From positions 659,001-723,000 of the forward strand of contig CAMXCT020001447.1 of NCBI GenBank assembly GCA_947184155.2: 64,000 nt of DNA, in the 5' to 3' direction. A program made the position numbers and the translations under genes. The notes beneath the pieces were generated by a model that did not search any database, had not been told where the DNA came from, and saw only the letters and a program-made list of their open reading frames with translations. The stretch is from Cladocopium goreaui (Eukaryota; Sar; Dinophyceae; Suessiales; Symbiodiniaceae). Below are positions 5,955 through 46,131 of this stretch, piece after piece (the stretch's first letter is position 1; every line of letters begins with the position of its first letter).

Positions 5955-5959
<5 letters not shown>

Positions 5960-12043: not shown

Positions 12044-12044
12044 C

Positions 12045-12058
12045 TGGTAGCGGAGCGG
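12045..12058 (+). promoter_or_regulatory. primer binding site (initiator tRNA-Met type)
   Basis: TGGTAGCGGAGCGG lies one base after the LTR. It matches 10 of 12 positions of the common eukaryotic TGGTATCAGAGC site complementary to initiator tRNA-Met. Confidence 0.75.
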
Positions 12059-12072
12059 TTCGCTTTGCTGCG

Positions 12073-20537: not shown

Positions 20538-20538
20538 G

Positions 20539-20799
20539 TGTGAGAATCCCCTGCAGTGCATTGCAATTGACTGCAACTGACTGAACTTTGCTGTGTATGC
20601 ATTCATAGCTGGCCCAGATCACAGCCGACGCATTGCATATGTCAGCTAGTGCATGGCCCGCACGGCAAGGATGACACGCACCATCAGAGAAAGAGATCAA
20701 GCACAAATCGAGAAGTGTACATATCACTATCCAAATACTTTCACCTTGTTTTGCAACTGTCGTGAAAAGGGTTGCCGCTGATCCGTTGCCAGTCTCAGA
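20539..20799 (+). repeat. 3' LTR
   Basis: Apparently identical to the 5' LTR except for 10 extra bases (TTGACTGCAA, 20,567-20,576), which make a local near-duplication of TTGCAA-(T/C)TGACTG. The right target duplication CTTAC follows at 20,800-20,804. Confidence 0.95.
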
Positions 20800-20804
20800 C
20801 TTAC
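20800..20804. other. target-site duplication CTTAC (right)
   Basis: Exact repeat of 11,788-11,792. Confidence 0.9.
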
Positions 20805-22432
20805 GAAATTGTTGGATCCAAACAGGCCCAGACCCATCTCAGTTTGTGAAACGAGACTTTGAGATGCTCCCGAGGGGCAGAGTGGTGTAGAAGAATAGGG
20901 GCTGTTCCCAGTGAGGTCATCCACCTAAATCATCCTAAATCTATGATTCTACAATTCTACGAAATTCTACATGATTAATCATCATCATGATTCTACATTT
21001 GCAGGGGATGGAACATCAGCTGCATTCCCCACGGAGCGCAAGCACGACATTAGTCCGGCATCCTAGTCTGACCTTCGTATCTTGAGATGTTGGGAGTACG
21101 GAAAGGTTTGCGAGACAGCTTGCGTGTCCACATCTGGCCTTTGAAATGATTCTTGTCTCACTGGCCCTGCCATTTTCACTAATTACTTTTCAAAGGTCGC
21201 CGTTCTATAGGCATCAACGCTCACTGCAATGAAGCATTGCCAAGCCTTGCATCCACTTGCTGAACATCCACAAGAGTACCGGTATGCTGGGAGGATTCTG
21301 AAGCAGTTTTGATTCAGTGTTTGATTCAGTTTTTGATTCCGTGTAGTGTTTAGATCTGTTTGTTTTTTTTGATTCTTTTTGGTTCTCCGTTGACCAGGCT
21401 TTTGGATTTCGCCAGATTTCACTGAAGAGCTGCTGCTCCGATGCTTCAGTTCCACTGCGGGCCGATTGAACGGCTTGCAGCCGGAGGCGGCGCGTTCAAT
21501 GGGTGGTCTTGCTTGGAGTATTTTTTTCATATAATTTTGCAGGCATTCAAAATTATTTAGTATCTATGATAGGTTCCGTTGAAATACTCAGTTCCTTCCC
21601 AGAAGAGACCACTTGATTTTGATGCACACCTTCTCACTGCATCATCTTCTTTCTATGTCTTGTATCATCTGAGTCTACACATCTCAAACTTCGACATGCA
21701 TGACATGCAGCCGAGAGAGCCACAGTTGAAGCTGCTTGACGAGTACTGCAGCCCTTTGGATGGACGGGCGTATATGATCGTAGATGGGCATGGTGCCAAA
21801 GATGCAAACCCATGTGGCAGTACAACTGTTCACGGATATGGATTTCCTCCAAGACCCAAGCTCTAGCGACGTGATATATCAAACTTATTCAAACTTTGAA
21901 TTTGTCTTTCCCGAGGCTAGGTAGCTTAGGTGCCAGTTGTGTGAAATCTTGAGGCACGATATGATACAATTAAACGAGTGCATGGCTATTTCTGGTGTTA
22001 GTGCCTGTGCTTGTGGTCGTAGTGGTGGTCGTGGTGGTAGTGATTTTAGCGGTGGTTGAGGTGGGTGTAGTAGTGGTGGTGCAGGTAGCTGAGGTTGCTG
22101 GACCACCTACCCAGCCTCTACCCAGCCTCTACCCAGCCTCTAGCCGTTTGAGATTTTTGCCAACACTTTGTTGTTGAGGGTGCAGGTGTTTGCTCGGAAA
22201 TAAAAATGAGGACCCCGTGGTTTGTGGTTATGCTCAGTTGCTATTTCCAACTTGTTGCGCTCGTGGTCAAAACTTGAGAATTGTGTAACGAAAATCTGGC
22301 GTAGCCAGGTTTGGCCTCATGACAAGTTAATGTTAAATGTTATATAATATTTATTCATATCTTATCACTTACAATGACTTACAATTTACAATTGGATTTT
22401 TGGATCAGGAGTCAGTCGTGTCTAGAGCCTCA
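20805..22432. other. no gene recognised
   Basis: Unique-looking sequence with short local repeats (GATTCTAC words at 20,940-20,998; GTGGTCGTGGTGGTAG at 22,010-22,060; a triple ACCCAGCCTCT at 22,108-22,140). No convincing open frame. Confidence 0.5.
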
Positions 22433-22984
22433 CACACTAGACAAGAAAGGATCATTATATGATCCGGCAGGAACTGAATCCTGAAACATGCAAACCAGTC
22501 TAGATCGTTAGATTAGTAAAGGAGCCACATGAGGTACGTCTCGAAAACGATGTAGGGCATCCAATATTGTCAAACGTAGTCTTAACCAGATTCCATAGAG
22601 TTTGGACCAGCATGTTGAAATCCAAAAAATTGTTTCGGCGATTGTTTCCCAAAAAGACCCAAAGTTCGTCGGCGACATGATCTCGGCGAAAATATGTCAA
22701 AAAATCATAATACTGTCGGCGATATGGTTTCGGCGAAAATCTGAGGAAGGTTCTGATGCATGCAATACAGATTGTGGCAGCCGTGTAGATTCGAAACAAC
22801 GCGGTGTAACAGCTTGATCAACAGTTGAAACCAAACGTTGCAGGTACACAGAGTTGATCAGACTCTGCTTCCAGCACAAGTGGATAGCTTCATTGGGTGC
22901 AGTCTCCACTGTGCTCTGCACCCCCCTGCAAATTAGTAAAAACCAATAAGAAGTTTTACATCTGTTCAGATGGTACACACACAC
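22433..22984 (-). repeat. terminal direct repeat, downstream (3') copy
   Basis: Matches 34,912-35,463 with only about three visible substitutions (for example GCAGCC/GCAACC, ACGCGG/ACGCAG, TTCATTGG/TTCGTTGG). Contains clustered TCGGCGA words. On the coding strand it starts in TGTGTGTAC and ends in CTAGTGTG, so it is not a standard TG...CA LTR. A 99-codon minus frame (22,500-22,799) recurs in the other copy but resembles no family. Confidence 0.9.
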
Positions 22985-23092
22985 CTCGCATGTAGCGAGG
23001 TTGGATTTTTTGGAAGAACTTCGCTGGCGGAATCGGCAATATACCATTGAAAGTGAACCTGTAATAACCTAATGTACAAACGGGCGATCACT

Positions 23093-23818
23093 TCAGTCAG
23101 AAGAGGAATTCGGGGCTTGTAGAAGGACTTCGATAGCATCGTGGAAGCTCATGCGTTCAACCATCGCCCAAGTCTGATTAAGTTCCCCAGATGCCGTAGC
23201 AGCCTTCAAGGTGTCAGATAGATCTTTGGCTAATTCATGGAGCCGGGTGGTTAGGCTCGGTTCATCTGCAGGAGATGTCGTCTCAATAGGCACATTGTGA
23301 AAAGGATGGTGTCCGTGTACAAGGGGAATCTCGAAATGATGTCGCCAATAGTCCGCTGTACGCAGGGACCACTCCCAGTTGCCCGAAAGACCATAAAAGT
23401 AGTGTTCAGGGTCACGACATCGGGAATGTCCTAACAAGGGGATTTCTTCAATGAATAGCTCCCTGGTGTTGTTGGAGTGGGTAATGACCTTGAATTGGAT
23501 CTGGTGAACCACGCGAGAAGAGAATTGAGCACGATGGAGGTAGTTGTGTGCAGAACTTGACTCCGTCGGAAACGGGACGCCAGGAGGTGCTGGTCCTGAA
23601 TATGTATCAGAATGGGCCATAGTACCCGTGTCAGGAGCCGTACTGTCAGTGACCAAAGGTGCCGACGTAGGGTTGGTAGTAGTGTCAGGAGGGCCTGAGT
23701 GACATAGTGCAGAAGTCTGGGCGTCTGGTACTTGAACTGGGTTGGTAGGAGCGAGTCCACGGGTAGGGTTCGAAGGCCAAGACAAGCCCGCCACGGTCGC
23801 GTCTCGTTTGTGTTCCAT
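23093..23818 (-). CDS. small accessory protein A (paralogue of C)
   Basis: 241 aa from a true ATG. The N-terminal third is Pro/Thr/Ser-rich and probably disordered. A folded-looking core follows (VVHQIQF ... ELFIEEIP ... LRTADYWRHHFEIPL), then a helical C-terminus. The core aligns with protein C (VHSVFIK ... ELWVVERTI ... LRTTANQWRRHYDVPI). I do not recognise the family. It is the last ORF of the element, with a 263-bp spacer to the next one. Confidence 0.7.
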   Translation of the reverse strand: MEHKRDATVAGLSWPSNPTRGLAPTNPVQVPDAQTSALCHSGPPDTTTNPTSAPLVTDSTAPDTGTMAHSDTYSGPAPPGVPFPTESSSAHNYLHRAQFSSRVVHQIQFKVITHSNNTRELFIEEIPLLGHSRCRDPEHYFYGLSGNWEWSLRTADYWRHHFEIPLVHGHHPFHNVPIETTSPADEPSLTTRLHELAKDLSDTLKAATASGELNQTWAMVERMSFHDAIEVLLQAPNSSSD

Positions 23819-24081
23819 GGGTGAAACTGTCAGAAATGCGAGAAAAAGTGCAACAACGGCTGAGGCATCAAGAATTGCAAATATAAGCCAATCCCGAAAA
23901 TAATAACATTCACAATGATGATAAAAGTGAAGTCCAGTCCTAAATCAAGCGGTTCAATTGCAACGGAGAAGCCACAGCTCGAAGTCAAATAAAGTAGAAA
24001 TCAAAGAATCCTTTGTGTTGGTGAGGTGTCAAGGGAGAATTGAAAGCCCTGCAGCATGGTCTTTTTTGGCCGGCTAGCGTA

Positions 24082-24675
24082 TCAGGGCAGGATCACACCG
24101 GAGCTAATTTTGTAGCATTGCAGACGTAGTACAAAAGGCTGTGTGGTACCCGGAATGAGCAAAGAGGATTCGCGGGAATTGTACTGCCGAAGTCGCCATT
24201 CAGGTCGGTATTCCTCCAAAAGCTGCAAGATCGTCATATCATTGGAGACTTGGAATGTATCACCGTCCAGGTCGCAAAAGCGAAACTCCAAATTCGAGGG
24301 ATCAATTTGGATGTCCCATTGGGACCTCAATCTTTTGGAAATACAGAAGCGTAGTTCGGCAATTGGGATGAGGCCGGCTTCAACTGGTTCCATCTGACGC
24401 GACCAGGTAAACAGAGCCTCCAGTTCGTAGCCACTAACATTTCTCAAATTGGAGCTGGCCATAGCCATGTAGTGTTCACGGTCAGGTTCGCTGCGATGAG
24501 TCAATGCCTGTAGGGGAGAGAAGTCAACCAAGATAAGAACAGGTCGGTTTGGAGGAGGGTTTACATCACCAGGGAGGCCTCGATGTCCAGCAAACCATCC
24601 AATGGTTCGTGTACCCAGCGGTGTCTCAATCGTAGATGTAGCGCGATATGGATGGGGCCGAGACGAATGAGCCAT
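24082..24675 (-). CDS. small accessory protein B (paralogue of D)
   Basis: 197 aa if started at the ATG at 24,675 (MAHSSRPHPY); the frame is open further upstream to 24,744 from a non-ATG codon. The core starts RPVLILVDFSPLQAL and ends PEWRLRQYNSRESSLLIPG, which aligns with protein D (RPVIFQLDLKPMQQLA ... YPTWK ... TTRECSSLLLTP). Function unknown. Confidence 0.7.
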   Translation of the reverse strand: MAHSSRPHPYRATSTIETPLGTRTIGWFAGHRGLPGDVNPPPNRPVLILVDFSPLQALTHRSEPDREHYMAMASSNLRNVSGYELEALFTWSRQMEPVEAGLIPIAELRFCISKRLRSQWDIQIDPSNLEFRFCDLDGDTFQVSNDMTILQLLEEYRPEWRLRQYNSRESSLLIPGTTQPFVLRLQCYKISSGVILP

Positions 24676-24855
24676 GGCGTCTAATGTCGAGTGTCGAAGA
24701 TAAAGCGGAAAGCCCAAGCTGCAGAATAGGTTGATAATGACCAAAGAATAAAGCTCAAAGTGTTGAAACGTAAGAGAAACGGTCTACCTAGTAAGTGGTC
24801 ACAAAAAGACGGTAAAGCACTGTTCTTTTCCGGTGCCGACAAATAATGTGGTGTA

Positions 24856-25542
24856 TTACACACTGGAGTCTGACATATCCATCGGGTCCGTATCGGTCGC
24901 ATCCAGTGGACCTTGTACTTGTTGAGGAGGGACGGTAGGCCGAGTGAGATGTAAAGTACGTTGTAATGTTGCCGGTGGTGACGAAGGTGGTGTAGACCGC
25001 CATGGTGGCCAGTATAAGGAGGTGGTAGTTCCTTGAGAGTGATGTTGCGCAGAGCGTCCCCAGCATGACTGCAAAATATAGAGTTGGTCCGGTATTGCTT
25101 CATATGGTTGGGAAACATAGACATTGGAGTGTTCAGGGTGTGGTAGAACAGGAACAGCAGTTGTCGTAGGGGAGGAGGATGATGATTGAATTGGTACGTC
25201 ATAGTGTCGGCGCCACTGATTGGCCGTGGTACGTAGAGTCGCCTGATCAGTGGTGAGGTGCATGTTCTCCAGAAAGGTTTCCACAGGTTTCCACGTTTCA
25301 ATACCATCAATTGTCCTTTCCACGACCCAAAGTTCATCCGGACGATTAGACAACGGGTAGCTCAGCTTCTTGATGAATACGGAATGAACAGTTGTCGAGG
25401 TCGGGATGGTTCGTGCTTCGCGAGGGATATACGATGCCGAAGTAGGATCATCAGGAGGTAGATGTGGAACTGGGCCATGTAGGGATGTAGGTGGGGAACG
25501 GTGTGAAGCCGATCGAGCAGTATCATCCGTATTGGAGGTCAT
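24856..25542 (-). CDS. small accessory protein C (paralogue of A)
   Basis: 228 aa from ATG 25,542 (MTSNTDD). Disordered Ser/Pro-rich N-terminus, core shared with protein A, then a His/Pro/Thr-rich tail. It lies between D and B, so the order D-C-B-A suggests duplication of a two-gene module. No recognised family. Confidence 0.7.
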   Translation of the reverse strand: MTSNTDDTARSASHRSPPTSLHGPVPHLPPDDPTSASYIPREARTIPTSTTVHSVFIKKLSYPLSNRPDELWVVERTIDGIETWKPVETFLENMHLTTDQATLRTTANQWRRHYDVPIQSSSSSPTTTAVPVLPHPEHSNVYVSQPYEAIPDQLYILQSCWGRSAQHHSQGTTTSLYWPPWRSTPPSSPPATLQRTLHLTRPTVPPQQVQGPLDATDTDPMDMSDSSV

Positions 25543-25770
25543 CGTGTACAACAACAATAATATGGTTTCGGAATACGCCGGACTGAAGCCAAAGAGCCAT
25601 GAGAAAGGTCAATGATGACGGGATGAATAACGAACATCAACAAAAGGAAAAGAAAGGAAAGAAGTGAAGGAGACCATGGAAAACCAAAACCAGGATGGCG
25701 GACATCATAACGAATGTTTTCCTTTTTCCGCATAGATGTGAGCATCGCCAAGATCTATCTGGAAGGCTAA

Positions 25771-26442
25771 TCACTCAGCCGCCTTAGTATATCTGGTGGC
25801 CGTGACGAATGGATGCCCACGGGGAATCACTTGGACATGTACAGCGAAGCCTGTGTCTTGTGCATCTGGATGGGGTGTCAGCAGCAAAGATGAACACTCA
25901 CGAGTCGTGAAGGCATCGAGATGTTGGTGAGTTTTCCATGTCGGATAAAACCAGTTCAAAACGTCCAGAAGAGAATGAGGAAGGTCATCAAGCATCTGAG
26001 CTCCTTGATCGGTGTCAATCATCATGTAGAAGTCGGAAGCTGGTAGGTGTATCGACCATCGTTGTAGCAGCGTATCGGTGACCACTGTTTTGAGGTCGGA
26101 AACAAAATGACTGCGAGCATAGTCCGGGTAGATCACCTTGAACGTCTGGAACAGGCTATCATAGGTGGCCGTAGGGAGGTTGCCCGCTACCTTGGGGGTC
26201 AAGATGTTGTAGTAAGGGTTGCGGACGGCCAGTTGCTGCATCGGCTTCAGGTCCAATTGGAAAATAACTGGTCGGTGGGGTGTCGAAGGCGGAGTCCGAT
26301 TGGGTGGATGCTGAAGTGACGAAGAGCCCATAGCGGAGGACGATGCCCGTGTCGGAGAGCGTGAGCGTCGTGTAGGTGAGATCCTCTCGTGGGACATAGC
26401 TCGCAGTTGGCAATAGCGGTCTAGGTGAATGCGGAGAGACAT
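25771..26442 (-). CDS. small accessory protein D (paralogue of B)
   Basis: 223 aa from ATG 26,442 (MSLRIHLDRY); a second in-frame ATG lies at 26,397 (MSHERISPTRRSRSPTR). Short basic SR-rich N-terminus, then a core similar to protein B, including the shared RE-SSLL near the C-terminus. Function unknown. Confidence 0.7.
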   Translation of the reverse strand: MSLRIHLDRYCQLRAMSHERISPTRRSRSPTRASSSAMGSSSLQHPPNRTPPSTPHRPVIFQLDLKPMQQLAVRNPYYNILTPKVAGNLPTATYDSLFQTFKVIYPDYARSHFVSDLKTVVTDTLLQRWSIHLPASDFYMMIDTDQGAQMLDDLPHSLLDVLNWFYPTWKTHQHLDAFTTRECSSLLLTPHPDAQDTGFAVHVQVIPRGHPFVTATRYTKAAE

Positions 26443-26616
26443 AATAAATGGCTGGCGGGTTGTGTGATACGACGTGTCAAAATTCACTGGGGCAACAACG
26501 CCCCTGGTTCTGAAGATTAACGAGAAGAAAATTCTCAGAAGGAAGGTCAAAGGATTGGTAAAGCTGGGATACAGTGCCGCAAGTTCTTTTTTCCATTGGT
26601 TTGCATATGTCGTTGG

Positions 26617-27249
26617 TCAGCCAAGTTTGTCTTTGATCTTATTCCACATAGAGCGAACATCTTCCTCAGACTTGCCCATCTTGGTCGAGATCACCTTCCA
26701 TGAAAATCGAGACTTCTCGTCAGCCTTCAGAGTGCGTAGTTTCTGTTTGTCTTCGGAGGTCCAGAGTGACAGTGGGCTCGAGGAGCGGGATCGGGATTGG
26801 TCACGTCGGCGACGACGCTTGGCAGGCGCCTTTGGAGCGGATTTGGCCTTCTGTTTGCGATTCGGCGGTGATGGTGTTCTGGTAGAAAGCTTCGAAGGTG
26901 CAGGTAAAACATCAGGAGGCGGAGCAGCAACATGTTGGTGTGGCTCAGGGAGATGGGTTTCCATCAGTTCATCCATAAGTGTCTCTTCCTCCGCCATATC
27001 CGGCGATGGGATGGGGGCATTGTCAATGAAGGCGTTGGTCTGGTCCGAATAATGTGGTCGTAGCCCATCAGGTTGATTCCATACGTCTGTACTGGGAAGA
27101 GGAGTAGGTTCGATGTTGGGAATGAGTGTGGGTGGTAGTAGCGCCATTGCTCGATGTAGTAGAAGGTAAGCATGGTGAACATCGTGAAGAAATTGAAGAA
27201 ACACTGGTTCTTGAATCGGAATTGACGTCGTGGGAGACGAGGAAGCCAT
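26617..27249 (-). CDS. SANT/Myb-domain protein
   Basis: 210 aa from ATG 27,249 (MASSSPTTSIPIQEP). The C-terminal ~55 residues form a SANT/Myb-like helix-turn-helix: LWTSEDKQKLRTLKADEK ... FSWKVISTKMGKSEEDVRSMW ... IKDKL, with tryptophans at the usual first and third positions. A basic KRRRRRDQSRSRS segment, likely a nuclear localisation signal, precedes it. A DNA- or chromatin-binding protein encoded by the element is the natural reading; target unknown. The N-terminal part is unrecognised. Confidence 0.75.
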   Translation of the reverse strand: MASSSPTTSIPIQEPVFLQFLHDVHHAYLLLHRAMALLPPTLIPNIEPTPLPSTDVWNQPDGLRPHYSDQTNAFIDNAPIPSPDMAEEETLMDELMETHLPEPHQHVAAPPPDVLPAPSKLSTRTPSPPNRKQKAKSAPKAPAKRRRRRDQSRSRSSSPLSLWTSEDKQKLRTLKADEKSRFSWKVISTKMGKSEEDVRSMWNKIKDKLG

Positions 27250-27422
27250 GACAATGCGTCGAATATGGGCCAACAAGTAAATGAAGCCGAGTTTGGGGGT
27301 AAGCCAGCTGGAAAAGCACTATTCCGAGATCAAATAAATTCAAATAAGGTCAAAATAGGTGAAACTTTCAGCAAGGTGTGAGTAATGAAACGTAAGCGCC
27401 AGCGGCAAGACATTTCAGGATT

Positions 27423-30149
27423 TTACCACAATGAGGAAACGTGCAAATATTGACGAATCGGCTTGGCGGCAGCGAAAAGATCGGACTCGGTAAAACCTGC
27501 AGATCTGTACAAACGGTGCAATGCGGCAAAACCTCGTGTTCGTTCATGTGCAGGGTGCGCGCATTTGGCGACCAGAAATAATCGTGAAACAAAGCCTGAA
27601 AGTTGGACGGCCAAAGGTGATGCGGAGAATGGCGCCATGACCTGGTTGAAGTCGCGTGGAGGGCTGTAGCGAAGGGCAAAGGGCTCGAACTCGATGCAAA
27701 AGCCCAAGAACTCCTGGTCCGGTTCCGTTTCCAAAATGATAGGATGGCCGTAGAACTCCGGGTGGAGGAAATTGGCGAAGCAAATTTCGTAGTCCCAGCT
27801 GGGGTCCGACAAGCAGAGTCTGTTGTCCACATAGCGAAGGAGGCGAGCTGTGAGATCCATGTTGCTAAGGGTGGTGCGGTAGGTTCGGTACCAGATTTCT
27901 TCAGACAGTGCGACAACCATCATGCACAAAGCTGGACTCAGTGGGGAACCCATAGGGGATCCTCGGATTTGTTCAAACACCGTAGTGCCAATGGAGAATT
28001 GAGTCATCTTCAAAGACATGAGGATGATGCGTTCAATGTCCCGAATGAAGATCTTCCTGGTCACATTGAGTGTACGGCATGTGCGGCCTTTTACTACGTC
28101 CCCTGTGTTATTGCCCGGAGTTGCCTTCACGGAGATGATCTCGTCGGGGTCGGTGTTCATGAGGGCCGAGAGGAACTGCAAGGTCAGTCGCCAGCTAGCG
28201 ATGAAGCGGTCAGTGTCAATGCTTGTGAAAAAGCCCGCAAGATCTTGGTTGTGTATTCGTGGAGTGGGGAGCGAATCAAAGTCAGTGTCCTTGAGGAGCT
28301 TGATGAGATCAAATACATCACCCCTTGCCAGGTTGTGGGGAAACGCTTGGGGTAGAAGGTTGTAGATCAGCTTGGCAGTGCAGTTCAACATGGGTCGGAA
28401 AGGTGCCATGAAGAAGCTGACAATGGGTCGTCCGGCCTTGAACTGTTTCTTCCGTTTGGGTAGAACATAGGCATTCGGCAGGTCTCGTCCAGCACCGAGT
28501 GCCCATGGGTATGCTTTGCCAAAATGGCGGTTGATCTCGGCGATGGTCCGCTCGATGATGTCACTCGGGCTTTGCTCCAATTTGCGAAATACCAACGGGT
28601 CGGCGAAGGTGGTGGTGAGGCACTGGAAGTAAAGTACGGGGCAGTAGATTCGTAGGGATGTAGCTCGCTTGTCCTCGTTGTGGAAGACGGCTTCTGGAAA
28701 AAGACGTTTGAAGCGGCCGATGTCTTTGTGAGTGATGTGGTTGTTGAGTGTGTGGTAGTGGGATTGAATAGAACGATGCCAAAGTTCATCAATATGGGAC
28801 TTTGGTAAGGAAGGGAGTGAGTTTCGGGTAGTCCATGTCCGCAGAGCCAGGCGAAGCGATGTCTGGATTTCTTTGGAGGGTGGGAAGATTTTGTTTTGAA
28901 GCGAACCAGTCGCAATGGATGTGTGTGGGCCATCATCGAAATGTAAGTTGTCGCCGTCGAGGACCAGGTGGTGATCGGGTTGAAGACCACGAAGGGCATG
29001 AGGTCGCAAGGCATCACAGGCACACTTTGGGGTTTCGCCGTCAGCCCATTTGGTAGCGGCTTCTTTGTGATTGCACAAGCTATCCATCACCGAGGGGAAC
29101 TTTGTGAAGACAATCGCCGTGGAAGGAGTCTGCAATGTGGTGTTGTAGTGTCGAGTTTGATGAACGTGGGAGGTGAGCAGGCGTCGAAGATCCCGAGTCC
29201 AGTTGGGGCATAGTAGCCAAGGCGCACGAAGAGGAACCGGTTTCCTGACTCGTTTGGCTTTCCAGAAGGTCAAAGCTCGGTCAATGGCATTGACGGCGTA
29301 CGACCTTTGGGGTTCTCCAAGGTTGTTGGCAAGACGTCGGATAAAGTAGCAGCCTTGAACTCCAATTTCGTTGGATCGTAGTTTCTTCTCCATGTGGAAG
29401 CGTCGAACGGAGTTACTGCCCAAATCCTGGATAATCTCCCAAAGTTGTACTCGTCTATGAAAGAGAGGACTATGAAGAGCATGTCGAACATGATGGGGTG
29501 TAGATCGCCAGCGAAGTTTCCGCCACAAGGAAAATGCTCCAAATTGTCGGGAGGCGGAAAATTTGGTACGTGCAATGAGTCCCTTTCGGCAATTGAAAAA
29601 CTGGTAAATGAACGGGGTGTTCAATCGAGGTTGCCACAATTGAATTAAGGCCTGTTCCAAGGCCCAAAAGTTGGATTTATTGGTGTAGATCGGGAACACA
29701 GACCACATCCAGAAATTGTCAAATCTGCACCAAAACCGTAAGGCAACTTCGGCCAGCACGAATTTATGTTGTTGTACTTGCAGAAATTTCCGATAGCGAG
29801 AGTGTTCGCGGTCCAAAACAAATGAAGACGTGGAACCAACATAAAACTTGGGTTGAAAATTAGCAATGTGGCAAAACCGAATATACACCGCCTGAGGGTG
29901 CTTGAAACATTGGAGGGCGACAGACAAGTCATCCCAGGATCTGCAAAAGAAAATACTCTGCATCGGAGTGCCTTTGAGCAAGGCTTGGAGTTTCGGATTG
30001 GCCCGTGGATGTAATAACACATATTGGCCCATCAATACTGTTTGGAGCATCCGAAAAGCAAAGAAGACATCAACAGAAGGGGACAACGTGAAAGGAGTCA
30101 ATAGAGCAAGAACAAGGATACAAGAATGAGCCACGGCCAGAGTGCGCAT
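27423..30149 (-). CDS. GIY-YIG endonuclease plus reverse transcriptase (Penelope-like)
   Basis: 908 aa from the first ATG (30,149); the frame is open without a stop from 30,194, directly after the UGA of the Gag-like ORF. A hydrophobic N-terminal segment (CILVLALLTPFTL) is followed by a GIY-YIG nuclease at about residues 85-180: AVYIRF, KFYVGST, Arg in DREHSRYRK, Glu in ALEQALIQLW and Asn in PRLN. The RT has RPIVSFFMAPFRPMLN, motif A DLAGFFTSIDTDRF (about residue 630), GSPMGSPLSP (~730) and RYVDN (~772, Asn for the second Asp of YxDD), then FLGF. It terminates at TAA. The endonuclease-first order is the permuted arrangement. Expression by readthrough from the preceding ORF is proposed as a finding. 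Confidence 0.85.
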   Translation of the reverse strand: MRTLAVAHSCILVLALLTPFTLSPSVDVFFAFRMLQTVLMGQYVLLHPRANPKLQALLKGTPMQSIFFCRSWDDLSVALQCFKHPQAVYIRFCHIANFQPKFYVGSTSSFVLDREHSRYRKFLQVQQHKFVLAEVALRFWCRFDNFWMWSVFPIYTNKSNFWALEQALIQLWQPRLNTPFIYQFFNCRKGLIARTKFSASRQFGAFSLWRKLRWRSTPHHVRHALHSPLFHRRVQLWEIIQDLGSNSVRRFHMEKKLRSNEIGVQGCYFIRRLANNLGEPQRSYAVNAIDRALTFWKAKRVRKPVPLRAPWLLCPNWTRDLRRLLTSHVHQTRHYNTTLQTPSTAIVFTKFPSVMDSLCNHKEAATKWADGETPKCACDALRPHALRGLQPDHHLVLDGDNLHFDDGPHTSIATGSLQNKIFPPSKEIQTSLRLALRTWTTRNSLPSLPKSHIDELWHRSIQSHYHTLNNHITHKDIGRFKRLFPEAVFHNEDKRATSLRIYCPVLYFQCLTTTFADPLVFRKLEQSPSDIIERTIAEINRHFGKAYPWALGAGRDLPNAYVLPKRKKQFKAGRPIVSFFMAPFRPMLNCTAKLIYNLLPQAFPHNLARGDVFDLIKLLKDTDFDSLPTPRIHNQDLAGFFTSIDTDRFIASWRLTLQFLSALMNTDPDEIISVKATPGNNTGDVVKGRTCRTLNVTRKIFIRDIERIILMSLKMTQFSIGTTVFEQIRGSPMGSPLSPALCMMVVALSEEIWYRTYRTTLSNMDLTARLLRYVDNRLCLSDPSWDYEICFANFLHPEFYGHPIILETEPDQEFLGFCIEFEPFALRYSPPRDFNQVMAPFSASPLAVQLSGFVSRLFLVAKCAHPAHERTRGFAALHRLYRSAGFTESDLFAAAKPIRQYLHVSSLW

Positions 30150-30194
30150 AATGTTGGCTGCTTTTGAGCCAGGTGCTTTCAAATACGCGGCTAG

Positions 30195-31412
30195 TCAGGA
30201 GTGCATCAATAACGCCACCGTCATGACCTTGAGGACGACTTCATCCGTGGAGGCCCCTTTGTGCTTGCATGGGTCAATACCCATAGCCACGCTTGCGCGT
30301 TGGATAGTTTTCGAAGCATCGTCGGGTTGGTTTTGCCACCATTCGTTGACCTTCTCCAAGTTCTTCTCCAAGATGTCCTGCTTGGGCTGTGGTAGCTTCA
30401 GGGATTTCACCCACTTTGTGTATTGGGTGTCCGATAATGATGTGGGTTGATTGTCAACGAGCCAAGTGTTCACGGAGCCAGGGGAGATAAGTAGAGTCGA
30501 GGGGTCGAAGGTCGTAGAGGCGGCAGGTTGTCCTTGAAGTGCACGTCCAATCCGTGTCGTGGCCGGCGTAGAGCCCTGAGGTGCCGTACCCGGTGAAGTA
30601 GTGCCGGCCGATTTGACCTTGGCCAGTTCTGCCTCTAGTTCAAGAATACGTTGTTGGCTCGCCACGTCCGCTGATGGTTGAGTCGGGAGCCAGGATTGGA
30701 GAAGTTGAGCAACGTCTTTGGCCATATTTTGGGTTGCTTCCTTCTGGTTGAGACATTGGCCTGCCGAACGAGCTCGGAAGGTAGCCAGTTTGTCCAAATC
30801 CACATTGCGGGTGCGTAGTTGTGATACCAATTCAGCCACAAATACTGTAGTGCCTATGTTGTCAAAAGGAAGAACGAAGGTTTCTCTTCCGTATGCAACC
30901 CGACGAAGCCAGGTATTGTGCAAGCCCTGGTACAAGAACTTCCAGAGTGGGACTTGTAAAGGATCCATCCCTTCGATGTCCTTGTAGCTTGAAAATCTGC
31001 TCTGTCGGATTCTGGAGGGAAAGTCCAAACCATTGATCTTGTTGGAGTCGTGGAAGTCGACATCAGGTTTCCAGTTCTCCACTGGTGGGATTTCAATTGG
31101 TCTGCATGTATATCCTTCGTTGACAGAGGAACTTGCTCCTGGGGATGATATGGGTCTCGGTGATCTCGGTGTAAAAGGGTGACGTTGAGGTGCAAAGTTG
31201 GCGTTGTTGGGAGGTGTCTGTGAGCTCGGAGGCGGCGTGGGCGGAAAAGGTGCCGTTGGTGAAGTCCATGGTGGGCGTGTTTGGAACGATGGAGACGTAG
31301 GTGGCGGAGGCGGTATTCCGGAGGGGTTCCAAAAGGGTCGATGTGTGGTCATGGCATAGTGCATCGGGCCACGGAATGCCGGTACTGCTTGGTGCCATCC
31401 ATGGGACGCCAT
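30195..31412 (-). CDS. Gag-like protein ending in UGA-CUAG
   Basis: 405 aa from ATG 31,412 (MASHGWHQAV); the frame is open upstream but that part is unconvincing. N-terminal ~100 residues are Pro-rich and disordered. A folded middle region follows (GLDFPSRIRQSRF ... DPLQVPLWKFLYQGLHNTWL), then a coiled coil (QQRILELEAELAKVKS) and a C-terminal helical domain (YTKWVKSLKLPQPKQDILEKNLEKVNEWW). Position before the RT and this make-up suggest a Gag/ORF1-type RNA-binding particle protein, without a zinc knuckle. Its TGA (30,195-30,197) is followed by CTAG and then the RT frame in phase. Confidence 0.75.
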   Translation of the reverse strand: MASHGWHQAVPAFRGPMHYAMTTHRPFWNPSGIPPPPPTSPSFQTRPPWTSPTAPFPPTPPPSSQTPPNNANFAPQRHPFTPRSPRPISSPGASSSVNEGYTCRPIEIPPVENWKPDVDFHDSNKINGLDFPSRIRQSRFSSYKDIEGMDPLQVPLWKFLYQGLHNTWLRRVAYGRETFVLPFDNIGTTVFVAELVSQLRTRNVDLDKLATFRARSAGQCLNQKEATQNMAKDVAQLLQSWLPTQPSADVASQQRILELEAELAKVKSAGTTSPGTAPQGSTPATTRIGRALQGQPAASTTFDPSTLLISPGSVNTWLVDNQPTSLSDTQYTKWVKSLKLPQPKQDILEKNLEKVNEWWQNQPDDASKTIQRASVAMGIDPCKHKGASTDEVVLKVMTVALLMHS

Positions 31413-31757
31413 GATGTAGAGAGGGTCACGAGATGATAGGTCAAAATGCGCTCGAACTGCCGAATGAAAGCTGCGGAAAATGTCGAGGTGAGACAAGGGT
31501 AATGTGTAAATGAAAAAGTGTGAGACAGAATACGTGGTCCCAGTGTGTGAAACGGAAAGTGAAAACGAATCGGGCGAAAGGATCAAAAACATGAGCATGC
31601 AGCGATTCACAAACCTTTTGAGGAAGAAGTGGCGGCAATACCGAATGTCGGGAGAAGCATTGTTACTCCAAAATGATCGGGCAGGGCCACTAGGCTCACT
31701 GTATCGCTGACGTAGAATAGTCGATACTTGTTCCGGTGCTCCTCAAGGGTAAATAGT

Positions 31758-34049
31758 TCACCAACGAGATCTGGAGTGGTGGGTCGAATGTCGAGAACGA
31801 GGTCGGCCGTCATGGTGCTGGTCGCGAGAGTGGTCTTCATGGTATGAGGAGCGGCGATCTCGGCGGCTGTAGGTTGAATTGTCCCAAGAAGCATTGTCGT
31901 GCCAAGATCGGCGAGCATAGTTCCGAGAGCCAGAGGCAGCGGTCTCGCGGTGGCTCGGTGTGTCGCGAGAGTCGTCTGGGGGCGGCTCCGAAGGTTCTGG
32001 GGCGTCGGCAGAAGGGTCAGGTCGTACTGGACGTGCAGAGTCATCAGGAGGTTCCGAAGGTGCATTGGTCTCCGCAGTCTGGTGTGTGATCAAGCCCGGG
32101 AAAACCGTGTGAGTGGAGGCAACGTAGCATATAGATGCGGCGCTCGAGTTCATAGCCGTTGCATTGTCTTTGCCCTTGGCGATGCCCGCAAGGTTGCACA
32201 AGCGTTGGATTTGGTCATTTCCTCCAGCTAGGGCACGGATGCATTTGGGTGAGCGGCATATGGCCAGTAGGCCTGATGGGTTTTGTCCTTTGCCTATTTT
32301 GTAGAGCTGAGAGGTACAGATCTTGACGGCGTAGCCGGGTAGGTTGTCGATGTCTGCGATCTCAGAGGACATTCCGAAGAATCCGTAACATGGGTATTGA
32401 GTCGGTATGCCGGCTTCGTTTTTTGTCCAAGTTGCCGGGCGGATGCAGTCTTCCGCAAGAATTTTGGCAACTGATTCCCAACTCGTTTTGTGGTAGATCA
32501 GGTAGGTGCCCATGTGTTCGCCACGGTAGATTGGTTTCTTCTTCAATCCTGTGGGAACCGTGATGGTCAGCAAGTTCTCTGGCTCGATGTAGAAGGCTTG
32601 TGTTTGCCTTGCGAGTTCGATGTCCAGTAAGTCGGATTGTGCAAAGGCCCTGGCAATATTCCTGACGGTGGCTTGGCTTGCTTTGATGTAAATACGATGG
32701 TTGTTGACAGTGCGGTATGGTTTAGCCAACTGTTCGAACATCGCGTCCACAAATTGGTTGAAGAGCTGCAAGATAGCCGGGGTCAATGATTGGCGTAGGG
32801 GAACAACATGATCGGGGCCAAGCTCAGTCAGGCAACGGACCCTATGGGGGTCATTGGCCGCCGCCACCATTTCATCGAGGTCGATGTCATTCGTGTCAAA
32901 CTTGGTGAGCGAAATTGTATCTGTAACCTCAGAATTTTCACTGTCGCCGTCCGGAACTCGGAATGACACCGCGCCGAGTGGTGCTGAAGTGTGGGCTGGT
33001 GGGTTGGTAGTTGGTTCAGGTGGCGGTGGATCGGCAGGAGAGTTGGGTCGAGCAGTGTGGTGGTGGTAGTTGTCGGTGTAATGGCTGTCGTTCCATGTGC
33101 CCCAGGTGTCATCAGCGTCGGGAGTGGGGATGTAGGCCGGATTGGATGGGTTTGCAGCTGGTCGAAGTATGACTTCACGGCCTCTGGATCGGTGATGTGG
33201 TGTCTCGGAGCGTGGGCGTGGGTGAGATCGATGACGTCGAGGAACCACCGGAGAGCGTCGTCGTGGTGGTGATCTTCGTCTGTATGGGGATGGGGTTCGG
33301 CGGTCCTTGGCGTGTTTTGTGGATGATCGATAACGAGGAAGAGGAGAACGAGGTCGAGCTGCACGTTGAGGAGATTTGCGATGGTGATGGGAATGTCCAG
33401 AAGGTCGATGGGAACGTGATCTTGGAGTCCTGGATCGTGGTCGGCGTGTTGGTGGTGGTGGAACTTGTGGTTGGTGAGGAGGAGCGATGGCTGGAGCTGG
33501 GACAATACGATGGTCCTGAACGTCCGGTTCGGTGGGTCTGGCTTTCGGTGCAGGTGGAGGCGTGGCGATCAGTGGTGGTGTAGTTGTAGGTGGCGGTGTC
33601 GGTGGTGTAGGATTCGGTGGAAGTTCATCTTGTTGAAGAAGGAGTTGACGTTGTTCTTGTGCTCGTTGAGAATCCATGATCAATTGTTGCTGAGCTTGAA
33701 TAAGTCGAACAGATTCAGCCAGTTGTTGTGCAGTGGAACCCAGGGATGCAAGTTCAGGTGACACGGATGAAGTCGGTGCTGTCGTAGGTGCCGGTGGTGT
33801 AGCGTGAGGAGGGGTTTTCGGAGCTGGCCTGCGTGGTCGATCCGGTCTTTTGTCCGAGCGATGCCTGGGAGCTGCCTTGACTGCTGGGGGTCGTGGTGAA
33901 GGCTCATTTGGAGGGACCGTCGATGCGTCCATCTGTAATGGAGGTTGAATGTGGTGAGGTGGGTATGGAGAACTGGGAAAGGTGTCGGTGTCATAGTCGA
34001 TGTAGGTGGTGTAGTCGATGTAGGGGATGGAGCCGGAGGGGAAGGCCAC
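31758..34049 (-). CDS. Pro/SR-rich protein with ADP-ribosyltransferase-like segment
   Basis: 763 codons whose 5' edge has no ATG (GTG at 34,049; first Met about residue 39). Residues 40-300 are Pro-, Arg- and Ser-rich with many SR/RSP dipeptides and a Q-rich helix (QAQQQLIMDSQRAQEQRQ). A globular part (about 380-650) contains MGTYLIYHKTSWESVAKIL, then CYGFFGMSSEI and YAVKICTSQLYKIG, which recalls the H-Y pattern of PARP/ADP-ribosyltransferase folds (HGT-like YHKTS). That identification is weak. A second SR-rich tail ends RSRHSTHHSRSRW. The true start is probably ATG 34,378 in the overlapping frame, reached by a -1 shift. The stop TGA is followed four codons later by a second in-frame TGA. Confidence 0.7.
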   Translation of the reverse strand: MAFPSGSIPYIDYTTYIDYDTDTFPSSPYPPHHIQPPLQMDASTVPPNEPSPRPPAVKAAPRHRSDKRPDRPRRPAPKTPPHATPPAPTTAPTSSVSPELASLGSTAQQLAESVRLIQAQQQLIMDSQRAQEQRQLLLQQDELPPNPTPPTPPPTTTPPLIATPPPAPKARPTEPDVQDHRIVPAPAIAPPHQPQVPPPPTRRPRSRTPRSRSHRPSGHSHHHRKSPQRAARPRSPLPRYRSSTKHAKDRRTPSPYRRRSPPRRRSPVVPRRHRSHPRPRSETPHHRSRGREVILRPAANPSNPAYIPTPDADDTWGTWNDSHYTDNYHHHTARPNSPADPPPPEPTTNPPAHTSAPLGAVSFRVPDGDSENSEVTDTISLTKFDTNDIDLDEMVAAANDPHRVRCLTELGPDHVVPLRQSLTPAILQLFNQFVDAMFEQLAKPYRTVNNHRIYIKASQATVRNIARAFAQSDLLDIELARQTQAFYIEPENLLTITVPTGLKKKPIYRGEHMGTYLIYHKTSWESVAKILAEDCIRPATWTKNEAGIPTQYPCYGFFGMSSEIADIDNLPGYAVKICTSQLYKIGKGQNPSGLLAICRSPKCIRALAGGNDQIQRLCNLAGIAKGKDNATAMNSSAASICYVASTHTVFPGLITHQTAETNAPSEPPDDSARPVRPDPSADAPEPSEPPPDDSRDTPSHRETAASGSRNYARRSWHDNASWDNSTYSRRDRRSSYHEDHSRDQHHDGRPRSRHSTHHSRSRW

Positions 34050-34378
34050 GTGGGTGGAGCGGTGGGTGCCATAGGAGATGGAAAAGTCGACGGAGCGGTG
34101 TGCACCATAGTTGGTTCAGGAGCCAAAGGCGAAGGCATGGTGGGTACGAGCTGTGGCCCTGGTACTGCATGAGGAGCCGAAGTCAATGAGGTGAACGGCA
34201 ACGATGTTGGGGTTGATGTAGACGGCATGAGCGAAGCTGAGGATGACCATGTAGGATGCAAGGCCGAGGGATGTCCAAATAAATGTGCATTCGGCGTTGA
34301 TTGCTGCCACGTCGAAGATGGGTTCGAAGGCTGCGGTGGAGCAGGCCATGACGTTGGCGGAGTGTTCCACGGATGCAT
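33680..34378 (-). CDS. Pro-rich N-terminal ORF overlapping the SR-rich protein
   Basis: First ATG of the element's coding strand (34,378). About 110 residues of Pro/Ser/Thr-rich sequence precede the region where the next frame also becomes open; beyond about 33,974 the composition of this frame turns into a His/Leu-rich shadow. Likely the 5' portion of the same protein as 31,758-34,049, joined by a frameshift or by an indel in this copy. Confidence 0.5.
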   Translation of the reverse strand: MHPWNTPPTSWPAPPQPSNPSSTWQQSTPNAHLFGHPSALHPTWSSSASLMPSTSTPTSLPFTSLTSAPHAVPGPQLVPTMPSPLAPEPTMVHTAPSTFPSPMAPTAPPTWPSPPAPSPTSTTPPTSTMTPTPFPVLHTHLTTFNLHYRWTHRRSLQMSLHHDPQQSRQLPGIARTKDRIDHAGQLRKPLLTLHHRHLRQHRLHPCHLNLHPWVPLHNNWLNLFDLFKLSNN

Positions 34379-34911
34379 CGCTTCAGTAGATCAAAACAAA
34401 AGTGAACAATCACATACAGGATTCAGTCCCTAACTGCCTAAAATGTCGTGCGATTGTTCCCTGCACTGGGACCGTGGTCAAGTCGTGCCGCAATGGCATA
34501 AAACAGCTTCCAAGTTCCATCGAATTAGATGCACAAAATGTTTAACCTCACCAGACAACCATCAAAAGAAAGAATCACCACACCTGAAAGTCGTGTGCCT
34601 GCCTGTAACCCGTCACATGGACATGTTTCACTTCCAAAGCTTGAGCTGTAGTGATCGAAAAAAGAACGTTTCAGGTTGTTCCGCATGGCTTCTCTCAGTG
34701 AAGAAAGCAATTCACGAGGATCTCAAGGGACAGCCGGAACGGCAGGACATCTCAAAAAGCTGGAAAAACAGTATGGCCGGCTGTTGCAATTTACTTAGAT
34801 GAATTACCAACTTAAAATGCGTAAATTCGGCAGTCAGGACAGTCAGCACTCACCCTGAAAAGGGTTGCCTCAAATGGCTCCATGGCACCATGTCGGAGCC
34901 ACCATGGAAAT

Positions 34912-35463
34912 CACACTAGACAAGAAAGGATCATTATATGATCCGGCAGGAACTGAATCCTGAAACATGCAAACCAGTCTAGATCGTTAGATTAGTAAAG
35001 GAGCCACATGAGGTACGTCTCGAAAACGATGTAGGGCATCCAATATTGTCAAACGTAGTCTTAACCAGATTCCATAGAGTTTGGACCAGCATGTTGAAAT
35101 CCAAAAAATTGTTTCGGCGATTGTTTCCCAAAAAGACCCAAAGTTCGTCGGCGACATGATCTCGGCGAAAATATGTCAAAAAATCATAATACTGTCGGCG
35201 ATATGGTTTCGGCGAAAATCTGAGGAAGGTTCTGATGCATGCAATACAGATTGTGGCAACCGTGTAGATTCGAAACAACGCAGTGTAACAGCTTGATCAA
35301 CAGTTGAAACCAAACGTTGCAGGTACACAGAGTTGATCAGACTCTGCTTCCAGCACAAGTGGATAGCTTCGTTGGGTGCAGTCTCCACTGTGCTCTGCAC
35401 CCCCCTGCAAATTAGTAAAAACCAATAAGAAGTTTTACATCTGTTCAGATGGTACACACACAC
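34912..35463 (-). repeat. terminal direct repeat, upstream (5') copy
   Basis: Upstream copy on the coding strand; presumably holds the promoter if it acts as a pseudo-LTR. It ends in (CA)n. Between it and ATG 34,378 lie about 530 bases (34,379-34,911) without a recognised gene, a possible leader. Confidence 0.9.
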
Positions 35464-37205
35464 ACACAGATGCAGGCTTTCCGTCACCAGCAGCACCAAA
35501 TGCATTACTCAGGAGAGGTCGAGGGAAGGGAAAAGCTTGGGCACTTGCGCGCCTTTGCACTTTGGGTGGAGCAAGGCTTTATGACAACATACCTCATCAA
35601 GTTGAGGCTTTGTGACTCTGTGTATTGTTTTCTCATCTCAAGGTGTTTCCTCAGGATGCAGATGTCCCCTTGATTGAATGCTTTTCCCTCTGGAAGGATG
35701 TGTGGAAGCACCTTTGCAGCGACCTGCGAGAACGCCTCATGCAGGCAGGCATCGTAGTGCCCAACAAAGAGGCTTAGAGGCGCCATAATTATCCAGCCAC
35801 ATTTTGACAGAATGCCAAAGCCTTTTCTCTTCCTGACAAGTTCCTCAGGAATCAGGATGCTAACAGAGCCTCAGGATAGTTTTTTCCTTTTTTTAAATGT
35901 TTTTTGTTGATTGGCAGTTGAATCAGTCTTTGGGTTGCCATGAGTCCCAATCAGCTGAATCATCAAATCATAGATGGTTACTGCTTGCCAGATCTTTCAG
36001 CGCCAGGATCCTTCAGTGGAGCCGAGAAGATCGCAGAAGAAAATGTTCGGACCGTGCAGAAACTATCAGAAACTCATTCTCCATCTTCAGGATGATTGTT
36101 GCCATTGTTTGGGTATCCAGGCAATTGACCTAGGAGAGCGCAGTAGATTGTTCAAGGGGTTCAAGGCTCCTTGAGTCCCCTAATGGGGTGTTTCTTCTGA
36201 TATTTATTGGTTGTTCAACTGCATTTGCTGCAACTTTTGAGACAAGTTGATGGAAACTTCCGCCCGTGCCGGGCCCTTGCCGATTTCAAGTGTGCGGGAA
36301 ACCGCTGGTCGTGCCGCAGTGCCCATGACAGCGGCAAAAACTATGGAAACTGTTACCAAGGCCAGTGAGGAAGACATTTATTTGCAGGTACATGCAAACA
36401 TCTGAATTTAGCCACATCCATCAACCAGCATCCGACTTCCGAGCATTCCAACTCCTTCAATTTGGTCTGGGGGTTTCATGATGATCGCCTCAACTTGATA
36501 CAAACATTTGGATGCAGGAATAAGGGAACACCTCCAGACAGCCAGGTGCATAGAGAGCAAACCCAACAGATCACAGATCCAACTTGTCAGCTTTCCTACC
36601 CGAAACAACAGCCGTGGTCGCTGTAGTTTGAGTCGGGTTGAAGTGGTCAGCAACTAGTGGCGGCCACAAGTTATGCCGCTGCCGAGTACGCCTCCATCAG
36701 GACCCACTCGAGCCATTCAGCTGCATTTGGGGATTCTCCCAGATATCCTTCGATGGTTTCATGATGTTCACAACACCGAGGCGCCGCTCTTACCGCGCTT
36801 TTGTGAGCTGGAAGAGACAGATGATTGGCTCCTTGGCGTCACCAAGCTGCTGGAACTCGCTTCAACGGCTATAAGATGTCATAAGGGTTGTGTTTCTGGT
36901 TGATAGGCCATGGGAAAAACATGGAAAAACTATAAACACTTGGGCTCCTGGCATGAGGTTTGCAGATACATGGGCAAAAGATGGCAAAAGGGGAGGGTAC
37001 CTGTCAATATAGAGCGTTTGGTACCGCCCCCCAGGTGCCCACAGTCTCCTGGCTCGTGATGGTTGTCAAACATATATGGGTTAATGGGTCAAGAATCATG
37101 AGCTAGGTTTTTCAATGTTTTTCATGGTTTTTCTGTTTTGCATCATTATCCAATAAGAACGGGGGATTATAAGCATATGTACACAATTATAGCGACGGAC
37201 AATCA
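35464..37205. other. no gene recognised
   Basis: Short open frames only. No repeats or motifs that I can support. Confidence 0.5.
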
Positions 37206-46038: not shown

Positions 46039-46131
46039 ATTTTCATCGATTTGATCGGTTTCTATATGTGCTACATGGCTCAAGGCCTTTTTATCTTTTA
46101 CCGGTTTGTCAAGCGTAAAACCCTTCCATCA

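Follow-up and report, generated by a model that had tools for sequence, protein, structure and literature searches.

Canonical Penelope-like elements (PLEs) of the Penelope, Poseidon and Neptune types encode a GIY-YIG endonuclease together with an RT and carry pseudo-LTRs. In Naiad and Chlamys, which Craig et al. are said to have described in 2021, an N-terminal GIY-YIG domain is reportedly joined via a CxC motif to a TERT-like RT, and these elements reportedly show pseudo-LTRs, tandem insertions, a microsatellite bias and no canonical hammerhead; a CCHH motif is said to separate Naiad from Chlamys. According to PMC6431247, PLEs share ancestry with telomerase and are seen as compact, the telomeric Terminons of bdelloid rotifers (Athena) being the giant exception: these are EN-deficient, carry many accessory ORFs (Rep, GDSL and DEDDy genes) as well as hammerhead ribozymes, have tails of telomeric repeats and form head-to-tail arrays. 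According to PMC12477816, PLEs were unreported in TSAR before its Ectocarpus finding.

The 64,000-nucleotide stretch of Cladocopium goreaui DNA analysed here (the window) very likely carries a giant Penelope-like retroelement with multiple genes, of the N-terminal-endonuclease (Naiad/Chlamys-like) type and from a family that is abundant in this genome. This placement is based on the N-terminal GIY-YIG domain, the CxC linker, the pseudo-LTRs and the GT/CA insertion. Eight genes lie between the terminal repeats, all on the minus strand: ORF1, ORF2, GIY-YIG/RT, Myb/SANT, A, B, A′ and B′ (Table 1). The earlier note had placed a GIY-YIG plus RT polymerase among about seven other same-strand ORFs; the minus-strand ORFs between the repeats were found as described, but two of the nine are parts of one frameshifted ORF1, because both are covered by the homologue P0075 (873 aa, in a cluster with 51 members), and likewise by P0097 and P0103.

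Table 1. Features of the inserted element, in positions of the window
Feature	Position	Strand	Description
Whole inserted element	22433..35463	(-)	13,031 bp; element 5′ end on the right; based on the empty site
5′ pseudo-LTR	34912..35463	(-)	552 bp; 3/552 mismatches to the 3′ copy
Unit start (GT)n-ACCATCTGAACAGATGTAAAACTTCTT	35427..35463	(-)	motif common to divergent lineages
ORF1	31758..34378	(-)	Pro-rich, SR-rich, then conserved ~250-aa domain; frameshifted here (34378-33680 and 33932-31758)
ORF2	30195..31598	(-)	467 aa if counted from the first ATG; translation probably starts at 31412, MASHG...
UGA stop (30195-30197) and CUAG (30191-30194)	30191..30197	(-)	separates ORF2 from RT in frame; candidate site of readthrough
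GIY-YIG / CxC / RT polyprotein	27423..30149	(-)	908 aa; frame without a stop for 923 codons, from the UGA onwards
Predicted N-terminal GIY-YIG endonuclease domain	29610..29891	(-)	residues ~87-180
CxC motif	29016..29024	(-)	C376, C378; invariant 13/13
Myb/SANT-like protein	26617..27249	(-)	210 aa; Pfam PF13921, E 2.8e-4, under cut-off
Gene A	25771..26442	(-)	223 aa; homologous to A′
Gene B	24856..25542	(-)	228 aa
Gene A′	24082..24675	(-)	197 aa
Gene B′	23093..23818	(-)	241 aa; homologous to B
Hairpin ACCTCGC-TACAT-GCGAGGT then GTGT	22983..23001	(-)	probable 3′ end of the transposition unit
3′ pseudo-LTR	22433..22984	(-)	552 bp; terminates ...TCTAGTGTG in target (CA)n

The SANT protein, the SR-rich protein (ORF1) and the two pairs of small proteins named in the earlier note were all recovered. 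The Myb_DNA-bind_6 match of the SANT protein (21.5 bits) lies slightly below the Pfam cut-off of 22.9, and its counterpart in a second, divergent lineage passes (E 5.8e-7). The small genes are arranged as a pair of pairs, (A B)(A′ B′), with 24% identity both between A and A′ (E 5e-10) and between B and B′ (E 6e-5). An A/A′ profile search matched 192 proteins, 120 of them listed, and comparison of A/A′ with Pfam gave chance-level rows only (best PB1, E 0.017, in one of 26 sequences). Comparisons between copies revealed purifying selection on all eight genes, with dN/dS of 0.20-0.31 for ORF1 (six comparisons), 0.07-0.12 for ORF2 against five copies (0.42 against the decayed copy C5284) and 0.11 for B against C3001 (dS 0.55); against C3001, C740 and C341 the values were 0.09-0.11 for Myb/SANT, 0.06-0.07 for A, 0.17-0.19 for A′ and 0.19-0.21 for B′.

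The RT ORF has 72 homologue clusters, and its order, GIY-YIG N-terminal to RT with a CxC linker, is that of N-terminal EN+ PLEs. Y89, Y103, G105, R114, E165 and N177 are invariant among 13 aligned sequences, and the region has a predicted beta-beta-alpha-alpha-beta-alpha order; scores are weak (Pfam E 0.18; UvrC GIY-YIG rows in Foldseek at E 5-9), so that the putative GIY-YIG assignment draws on residues and topology together, each statistically weak alone. The CxC motif is also invariant in a 26-row alignment. The best structural matches of the RT model, whose confidence is middling (pLDDT 73.5, pTM 0.52), were telomerases (Foldseek ranks 1-8, VIA ranks 1-16), ranking above retroviral RTs, with the lowest telomerase rows of the fold search tying with R2 and group II intron RTs; judged by modelled structure, the RT thus appears closest to telomerase RT. 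In complete homologues motif C is YVDN instead of YxDD, and motifs A and B are separated by a long stretch (about residues 640-730), a possible counterpart of the IFD insertion in the RT fingers of N-terminal EN+ PLEs. A search for RT relatives in viral contigs gave eight pattern matches and zero relatives.

ORF2, whose position is gag-like, has a Pro-rich N-terminus followed by a domain that the second lineage conserves at 39% (against ORF2 of C6176, 38.8% over 299 aa with E 8e-63); a Pfam search with the second-lineage ORF2 gave no match. ORF2 and RT share one frame, interrupted by a single UGA-CUAG, a known stop-codon readthrough context. The heptamer TGACTAG is kept in 31/31 copies (11/11 and 20/20) and in 4/4 loci of the second lineage (two of the four near-identical), at an RT identity of 45%, and the RNA just 3′ of the UGA folds in each lineage when the lineages are folded separately. 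The RT is probably made as an ORF2-RT fusion by readthrough of the UGA-CUAG. Less probable is that spliced-leader trans-splicing instead provides a separate mRNA for every ORF, including RT, and that the UGA between ORF2 and RT simply ends translation. Many dinoflagellate mRNAs receive a spliced leader in trans, which would explain the expression of eight ORFs, and the window subfamily has an ATG 45 bases after the stop; this ATG is not universal, however, because the homologue P0012 has ILRTLAV where the window has IMRTLAV. Nor does the invariance of the UGA within the young subfamily discriminate: across the genome the junction pattern matched 238 times with TGA exact, never as TGB or THA and once as VGA, and another base following TGA gave 0 matches, as did a control varying the pattern's last base. 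Since this nearby control base is equally invariant, the variant counts reflect youth rather than constraint, and constraint on the UGA-CUAG rests on the deep lineage, in which frame, UGA and CUAG are all kept; a known readthrough heptamer is not expected to persist at an unconstrained stop. P0012 carries W at the stop position and is attributed to another genome or another translation table, because the search of the source genome turned up no TGB copy.

The terminal direct repeats align over 552 bp, gap-free and with three mismatches, in line with the ~552 bp and about three differences given in the earlier note. They behave as PLE pseudo-LTRs, that is, as a unit plus a partial second unit, most clearly at locus L057, where two 1,283-bp units and a 421-bp partial unit stand in tandem. 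The start motif GTGTGTGNNNCATCTGNANAGATGTAAAACTTC has 2,357 matches in the genome (control 0) and was also found in the second lineage, at three short-unit loci and in short non-coding derivatives. At the other end, the stem of the window hairpin is 5 bp on a stretch cut before the repeat and 7 bp once two bases of the repeat are included; hairpins of 7 bp whose stems differ in sequence occupy the equivalent position in C6176, C14, C10 and C30. The hairpin with GTGT, common to unit ends of both lineages, probably marks the 3′ end of the transposition unit. Reading the 552-bp repeats as true LTRs, which would make this an LTR retrotransposon or an endogenous retrovirus-like element, would account for the LTR-like organisation, repeats homogenised at insertion and the gag-stop-pol look. 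That reading is nevertheless very improbable, as a Pfam scan of ten ORFs (E up to 1), which diverged domains could escape, detected neither an integrase, RNase H or protease nor a zinc knuckle, the RT matches telomerases above retroviral RTs, the tandem array and unit-boundary hairpins fit pseudo-LTRs, and all 11 copies examined sit at GT/TG, the 5′ flank ending in GT and the 3′ flank beginning with TG. The GT-rich flanks are long in some copies (e.g. C740) and a few bases in others (e.g. C341), and the microsatellite insertion bias is judged from these 11 copies' flanks and the empty site.

The pre-insertion state is preserved one host repeat upstream (C1447:640043-640650), where the empty site lacks 22433-35463, within the ambiguity of the CA repeat, and shows an interstitial (CA)5 tract inside a host tandem repeat; the 13,031 bp were therefore inserted as a single unit, in agreement with the earlier note's view that the whole 13 kb had moved. 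A 40-kb direct repeat (6005-7539 / 46039-47597) was considered as the LTRs of a host element and rejected; since an ATP-grasp protein is encoded at both ends and the empty site lies one repeat upstream, it is read as a tandem host repeat. The search for further copies that the earlier note had proposed was run on the 1.17-Gb source genome: all nine full-length copies fetched, chosen for having both repeats, retain gene order and ends. Ten of 12 other repeat pairs were fetched, C71 (18 kb) and C15 (15.7 kb) being left out, and the nine full copies may represent eight independent insertions because C2332 and C2768 share a 5′ flank. Matching contig sizes between protein tables (2 RT/ORF1, 3 RT/A, 4 ORF1/A) had offered a first hint of linkage only. 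Most fetched copies carry some break, as the window copy does in ORF1, and the family may still be active. The second lineage comprises a 12-kb element with the same gene families and one B gene instead of two.

That a standard PLE and unrelated genes or nested elements were trapped between two terminal-repeat copies is highly improbable. Nested unrelated insertions, together with RT units elsewhere bearing other ends, would have overturned the earlier note's view, and this refutation fails. Such a composite could explain why subfamilies are mosaic (C2332 has 99% identity in RT but 90% in ORF1, and C3001 86% in B and 97% in RT) and why A, B, A′ and most of B′ are missing from C5284; against it stand the common order in 9/9 copies, the purifying selection seen for each gene, the empty site and the presence of the same gene families in the deep lineage. 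A domesticated host gene array would fit long-term selection on all ORFs and is almost certainly wrong, given 321 dispersed junction matches in the genome, the empty site and pseudo-LTR pairs without a mismatch in C5793 and C1502.

In the cycle that we propose, a transcript would start near the GTGTGTG...CATCTG motif, carry the eight ORFs and end in the hairpin and GUGU. ORF2 would be translated, and some ribosomes would read through the UGA-CUAG into an ORF2-GIY-YIG-RT fusion, a gag-pol-like control of ratio. After the endonuclease had nicked a (CA)n/(GT)n tract, the RNA could pair through its GUGU end with the CA strand and be copied there by the telomerase-like RT, a second, partial copy from the same event yielding the pseudo-LTR. 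The ORF1, Myb/SANT and A/B products would be element-encoded accessory proteins, which might, as a guess, bind RNA or DNA, aid nuclear delivery or influence the choice of target. More speculatively, and we hold this only tentatively, the element might be a PLE with an independently evolved retrovirus-like strategy, in which ORF2 would be a Gag-like structural protein, readthrough would set the ORF2:ORF2-RT ratio, and ORF2, ORF1 and the A/B proteins would jointly form a particle or RNP carrying a polycistronic 13-kb genome; the clade would then be ancient, comprising two or more deep lineages and non-autonomous satellites of its own.

An eight-gene PLE that bears an endonuclease, sits at an interstitial site and has hundreds of junction matches within a single genome widens the PLE order, in which its known relatives have one or two genes or are confined to chromosome ends. 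The element makes stop-codon readthrough in a PLE open to testing, points to GU:CA priming as a model of how microsatellites are targeted, and supplies dinoflagellate genomics with a repeat family that has a start motif and short derivatives of its own. Murine leukaemia virus makes gag-pol by stop-codon readthrough, and the element resembles it in that an upstream ORF and a polymerase share a frame broken by one stop, an analogy of expression only and not Gag homology. With Penelope, Poseidon and Neptune it shares GIY-YIG, RT and pseudo-LTRs, and it differs from them in its permuted domain order, size, gene content and in that no hammerhead was found: an Rfam scan of the window copy (22300-35600, E up to 5) gave no hammerhead ribozyme and one miRNA row below its cut-off. 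The element is like the Terminons a giant PLE with many accessory ORFs and head-to-tail arrays, and it may also resemble them in an RNA whose 3′ end has a structure and then a target-complementary repeat; it differs in the endonuclease domain of its RT ORF, in its other accessory genes, in the window copy's interstitial (CA)5 rather than telomeric site and in the hammerhead result for that copy. Naiad and Chlamys reportedly agree with it in the N-terminal GIY-YIG, CxC, TERT-like RT, pseudo-LTRs, tandem units, microsatellite insertion and lack of a detected hammerhead. Unlike these compact single-ORF elements, the present one spans 12-13 kb with eight genes, has a separate ORF2 joined by UGA-CUAG and resides in an alveolate host. 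Of the earlier note's candidate new retroelement class, the multi-gene PLE stands, but the element is more fittingly described as a new and very large form of N-terminal-endonuclease PLE.

Within the window, the Penelope-like (PLE) candidate is bounded by terminal direct repeats of 552 bp that align without gaps and with 3 mismatches, bearing out the near-identical ends of about 552 bp, with about three differences, described in the earlier note. From its 5′ end, which is on the right, the gene order is ORF1, ORF2, GIY-YIG/RT, Myb/SANT, A, B, A′ and B′. The several same-strand ORFs claimed between the repeats were found there on the minus strand, except that two of them are a single gene: ORF1 appears as two overlapping ORFs, and homologues such as P0075 span both, indicating that the window copy is frameshifted in ORF1. 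The two proposed pairs of small proteins were recovered as diverged pairs, A with A′ (24% identity, E 5e-10) and B with B′ (24% identity, E 6e-5). In P0109, another ORF1 homologue, the protein carries on into a reverse transcriptase of RVT_1 type (apparently LINE-like), probably owing to an element nested in a different copy. At RT motif C, the window and all 11 other complete sequences of a 13-sequence alignment, which includes lineages at 45% identity, have YVDN in place of YxDD (the thirteenth, P0065, is without that region). Asn at this catalytic position is unusual.

Coordinates of the features (window positions unless a contig is named)
Feature	Position	Strand	Details
PLE candidate	22433-35463	-	13,031 bp
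3′ terminal repeat	22433-22984	-
5′ terminal repeat	34912-35463	-
GIY-YIG/RT	27423-30149	-	motif C at residues 773-776
Element-free site	C1447:640043-640650		41 kb upstream of the element
Ty1/copia-like element	11816-20801		RVT_2 E 3.5e-9; identical 230-bp terminal repeats
ATP-grasp gene copies at the two ends of the 40-kb host repeat	5696-7390 and 46027-47424		97% over 1.5 kb
Tandem satellites adjoining the ATP-grasp copies	1592-5454 and 47960-50059		periods about 218 bp and 277 bp
Open frame	54770-59179		1,470 codons; C-5 cytosine DNA methylase domain (E 2.8e-13)
Second-lineage element	C6176:50036-62093		417-bp terminal repeats, 99.3% identical

A search for further copies with the same ORF order and ends had been proposed. 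The repeat, used as a query against the source genome (1,165,616,438 bases, 6,202 contigs; the window is C1447:659001-723000), produced 40 scored full-length matches from 1,680 first-look candidates, and 26 of these made 13 same-strand pairs, spaced 12.5-12.8 kb in ten cases and 9.3, 15.2 and 17.5 kb in the other three. Besides the window pair there are 12, of which ten were examined (all but C71 and C15), and all nine full-length copies agreed with the proposal, carrying the eight genes in identical order between the same repeats; in the tenth pair, C5284 (9.9 kb), A, B and A′ are missing, as is most of B′. The RT query yielded 50 scored matches from 1,888 candidates, 12 of which had one of the 40 scored repeats on the same contig in the correct orientation. 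Eleven of these 12 show the spacing expected, with the 3′ repeat 4.4 kb away and/or the 5′ repeat 4.8-5.5 kb away, and one, on C806, lies at 12.6 kb; for the remaining 38, none of the 40 scored repeats was at hand to pair with. The C2332 and C2768 copies have their 5′ flank in common and may be one insertion, later duplicated. Identity to the window is mosaic along C2332, C3001 and C5284 (ORF1 90% with RT 99%; B 86% with RT 97%), pointing to template switching, or to recombination, among the subfamilies.

The claim that the whole 13 kb moves as a unit was corroborated by an element-free site. The flanks of the window copy, joined, had one end-to-end match (95% identical, small gaps), which reads TAGAGCCT(CA)5GATGCAGG and lacks the interval 22433-35463, give or take the CA ambiguity, indicating insertion into a short CA repeat. 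Repeats within a copy differ by 0-7 bases in ten of 11 copies (24 in C5284; identical in C5793 and C1502), against 18-27 bases between subfamilies, which fits copying of both repeats from a single template at each insertion. The host region is a 40-kb tandem repeat with an ATP-grasp gene at each end and at least one further, insertion-free unit upstream (C1447:640043); the Ty1/copia-like element between both ATP-grasp copies is another very young insertion.

Between the window and the C3001 copy, dN/dS was 0.24 for ORF1, 0.07 for ORF2, 0.07 for RT (552 codons), 0.09 for SANT, 0.07 for A, 0.11 for B and 0.19 for both A′ and B′, with dS of 0.10-0.55. Over all six comparison copies it was 0.04-0.42, highest for ORF2 against the decayed C5284, and values for the 3′ genes against C2332 and C2768 are based on few changes. 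Such low ratios argue from codon comparison that all eight ORFs are real genes, and many copies carry breaks, e.g. in RT (C6115, C1502, C341), ORF1 (C5793, C740), or A and B′ (C3203). With protein P0045 as genome query, RTs of another lineage were retrieved, whose gene content is known from a single element on C6176: an SR-rich ORF1 that is disrupted here, then ORF2, RT, Myb/SANT, a pair of A-like genes and a single B-like gene, making seven genes that end A-A-B as against A-B-A′-B′ in the window copy. BLASTP against the window gave 44.7% over 889 aa for RT, 38.8% over 299 aa for ORF2 (8e-63), 37.5% over 48 aa for SANT (2e-4), 2.6e-10 and 2.6e-6 for A′, 1.3e-4 for B′ and 1.7e-5 for ORF1 (7.7e-9 against a profile of ORF1 homologues), E-values that refer to small comparisons. 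Judged by these matches, the families of accessory genes have long belonged to the element.

ORF2 and RT share one frame, separated by a single UGA followed by CUAG, the context of efficient readthrough in four mammalian genes, where mutation showed the importance of CUAG (PMC4132726). UGA-CUAG is kept in 11 of 11 element copies, 20 of 20 further RT copies from the 50 best matches, and four of four second-lineage loci (L048 and L049 being near-identical). TGACTAGCNGCNTATTTGAAA had 238 exact genome matches, 321 when as many as two mismatches were allowed (2 for the control), one match with another stop-codon base and none genome-wide with another base directly after the stop. However, a control base near the stop is equally invariant genome-wide, so that constraint is shown by the deep lineage only. 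The main alternative is a plain UGA stop with RT translated from its own trans-spliced mRNA, judged less likely than readthrough.

All 11 copies start with GTGTGTGTGTACCATCTG... after a flank ending GT and end with ...CTAGTGTG before a flank starting TG, the extent of GT-rich flank being variable. The 3′ repeat is immediately preceded by a hairpin (window stem ACCTCGC/GCGAGGT) and then GTGT; at the equivalent place, the second lineage and three loci with short units also carry a hairpin, with other stems (GCCCCGC/GCGGGGC, ACCCTCC/GGAGGGT, GCCTCGC/GCGGGGC, ACCCGGC/GCCGGGT). The likely insertion route would be target-primed reverse transcription, in which the hairpin-GUGU RNA end may pair with the CA strand once it is nicked, and the pseudo-LTR would be left by another, incomplete round of copying. 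The start motif had 2,357 genome matches (control, 0), a count of starts preceded by GTGTGTG. The 100 matches listed include 38 same-strand neighbours separated by less than 20 kb, with spacings of 12.3-12.7 kb in 12 cases, 10.0-11.7 kb in five, 1.0-1.4 kb in 15, near 0.5 kb in two and other values in four. Three 1.0-1.4 kb loci (L057-L059) share the start motif and hairpin and contain no open frame above 186 codons; such short elements, some in tandem, are likely non-autonomous satellites of the giant ones. L057, with two full units of 1,283 bp and a partial one of 421 bp, is the clearest form of the pseudo-LTR layout. In a head-to-tail array on C6176 (L055, L048, L056), the second-lineage element directly adjoins sequence that matches the GTGTG end of a window-type element, the B, A′ and B′ genes of which are found upstream; a start-motif-like sequence follows the C6176 element, and the start motif also follows the C1502 copy.

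Among the matches listed in a literature search that left most subscription papers outside, no such element was reported, either for PLEs in dinoflagellates, Symbiodinium or alveolates or for the retroelements of Symbiodiniaceae. According to a 2025 paper, PLEs were unreported in TSAR before its own finding in Ectocarpus (PMC12477816). A typical PLE, as outlined in a 2019 review, measures 4-6 kb and has one or two ORFs, the exception being the Terminons, which are EN-deficient, telomeric and up to 40 kb long (PMC6431247).
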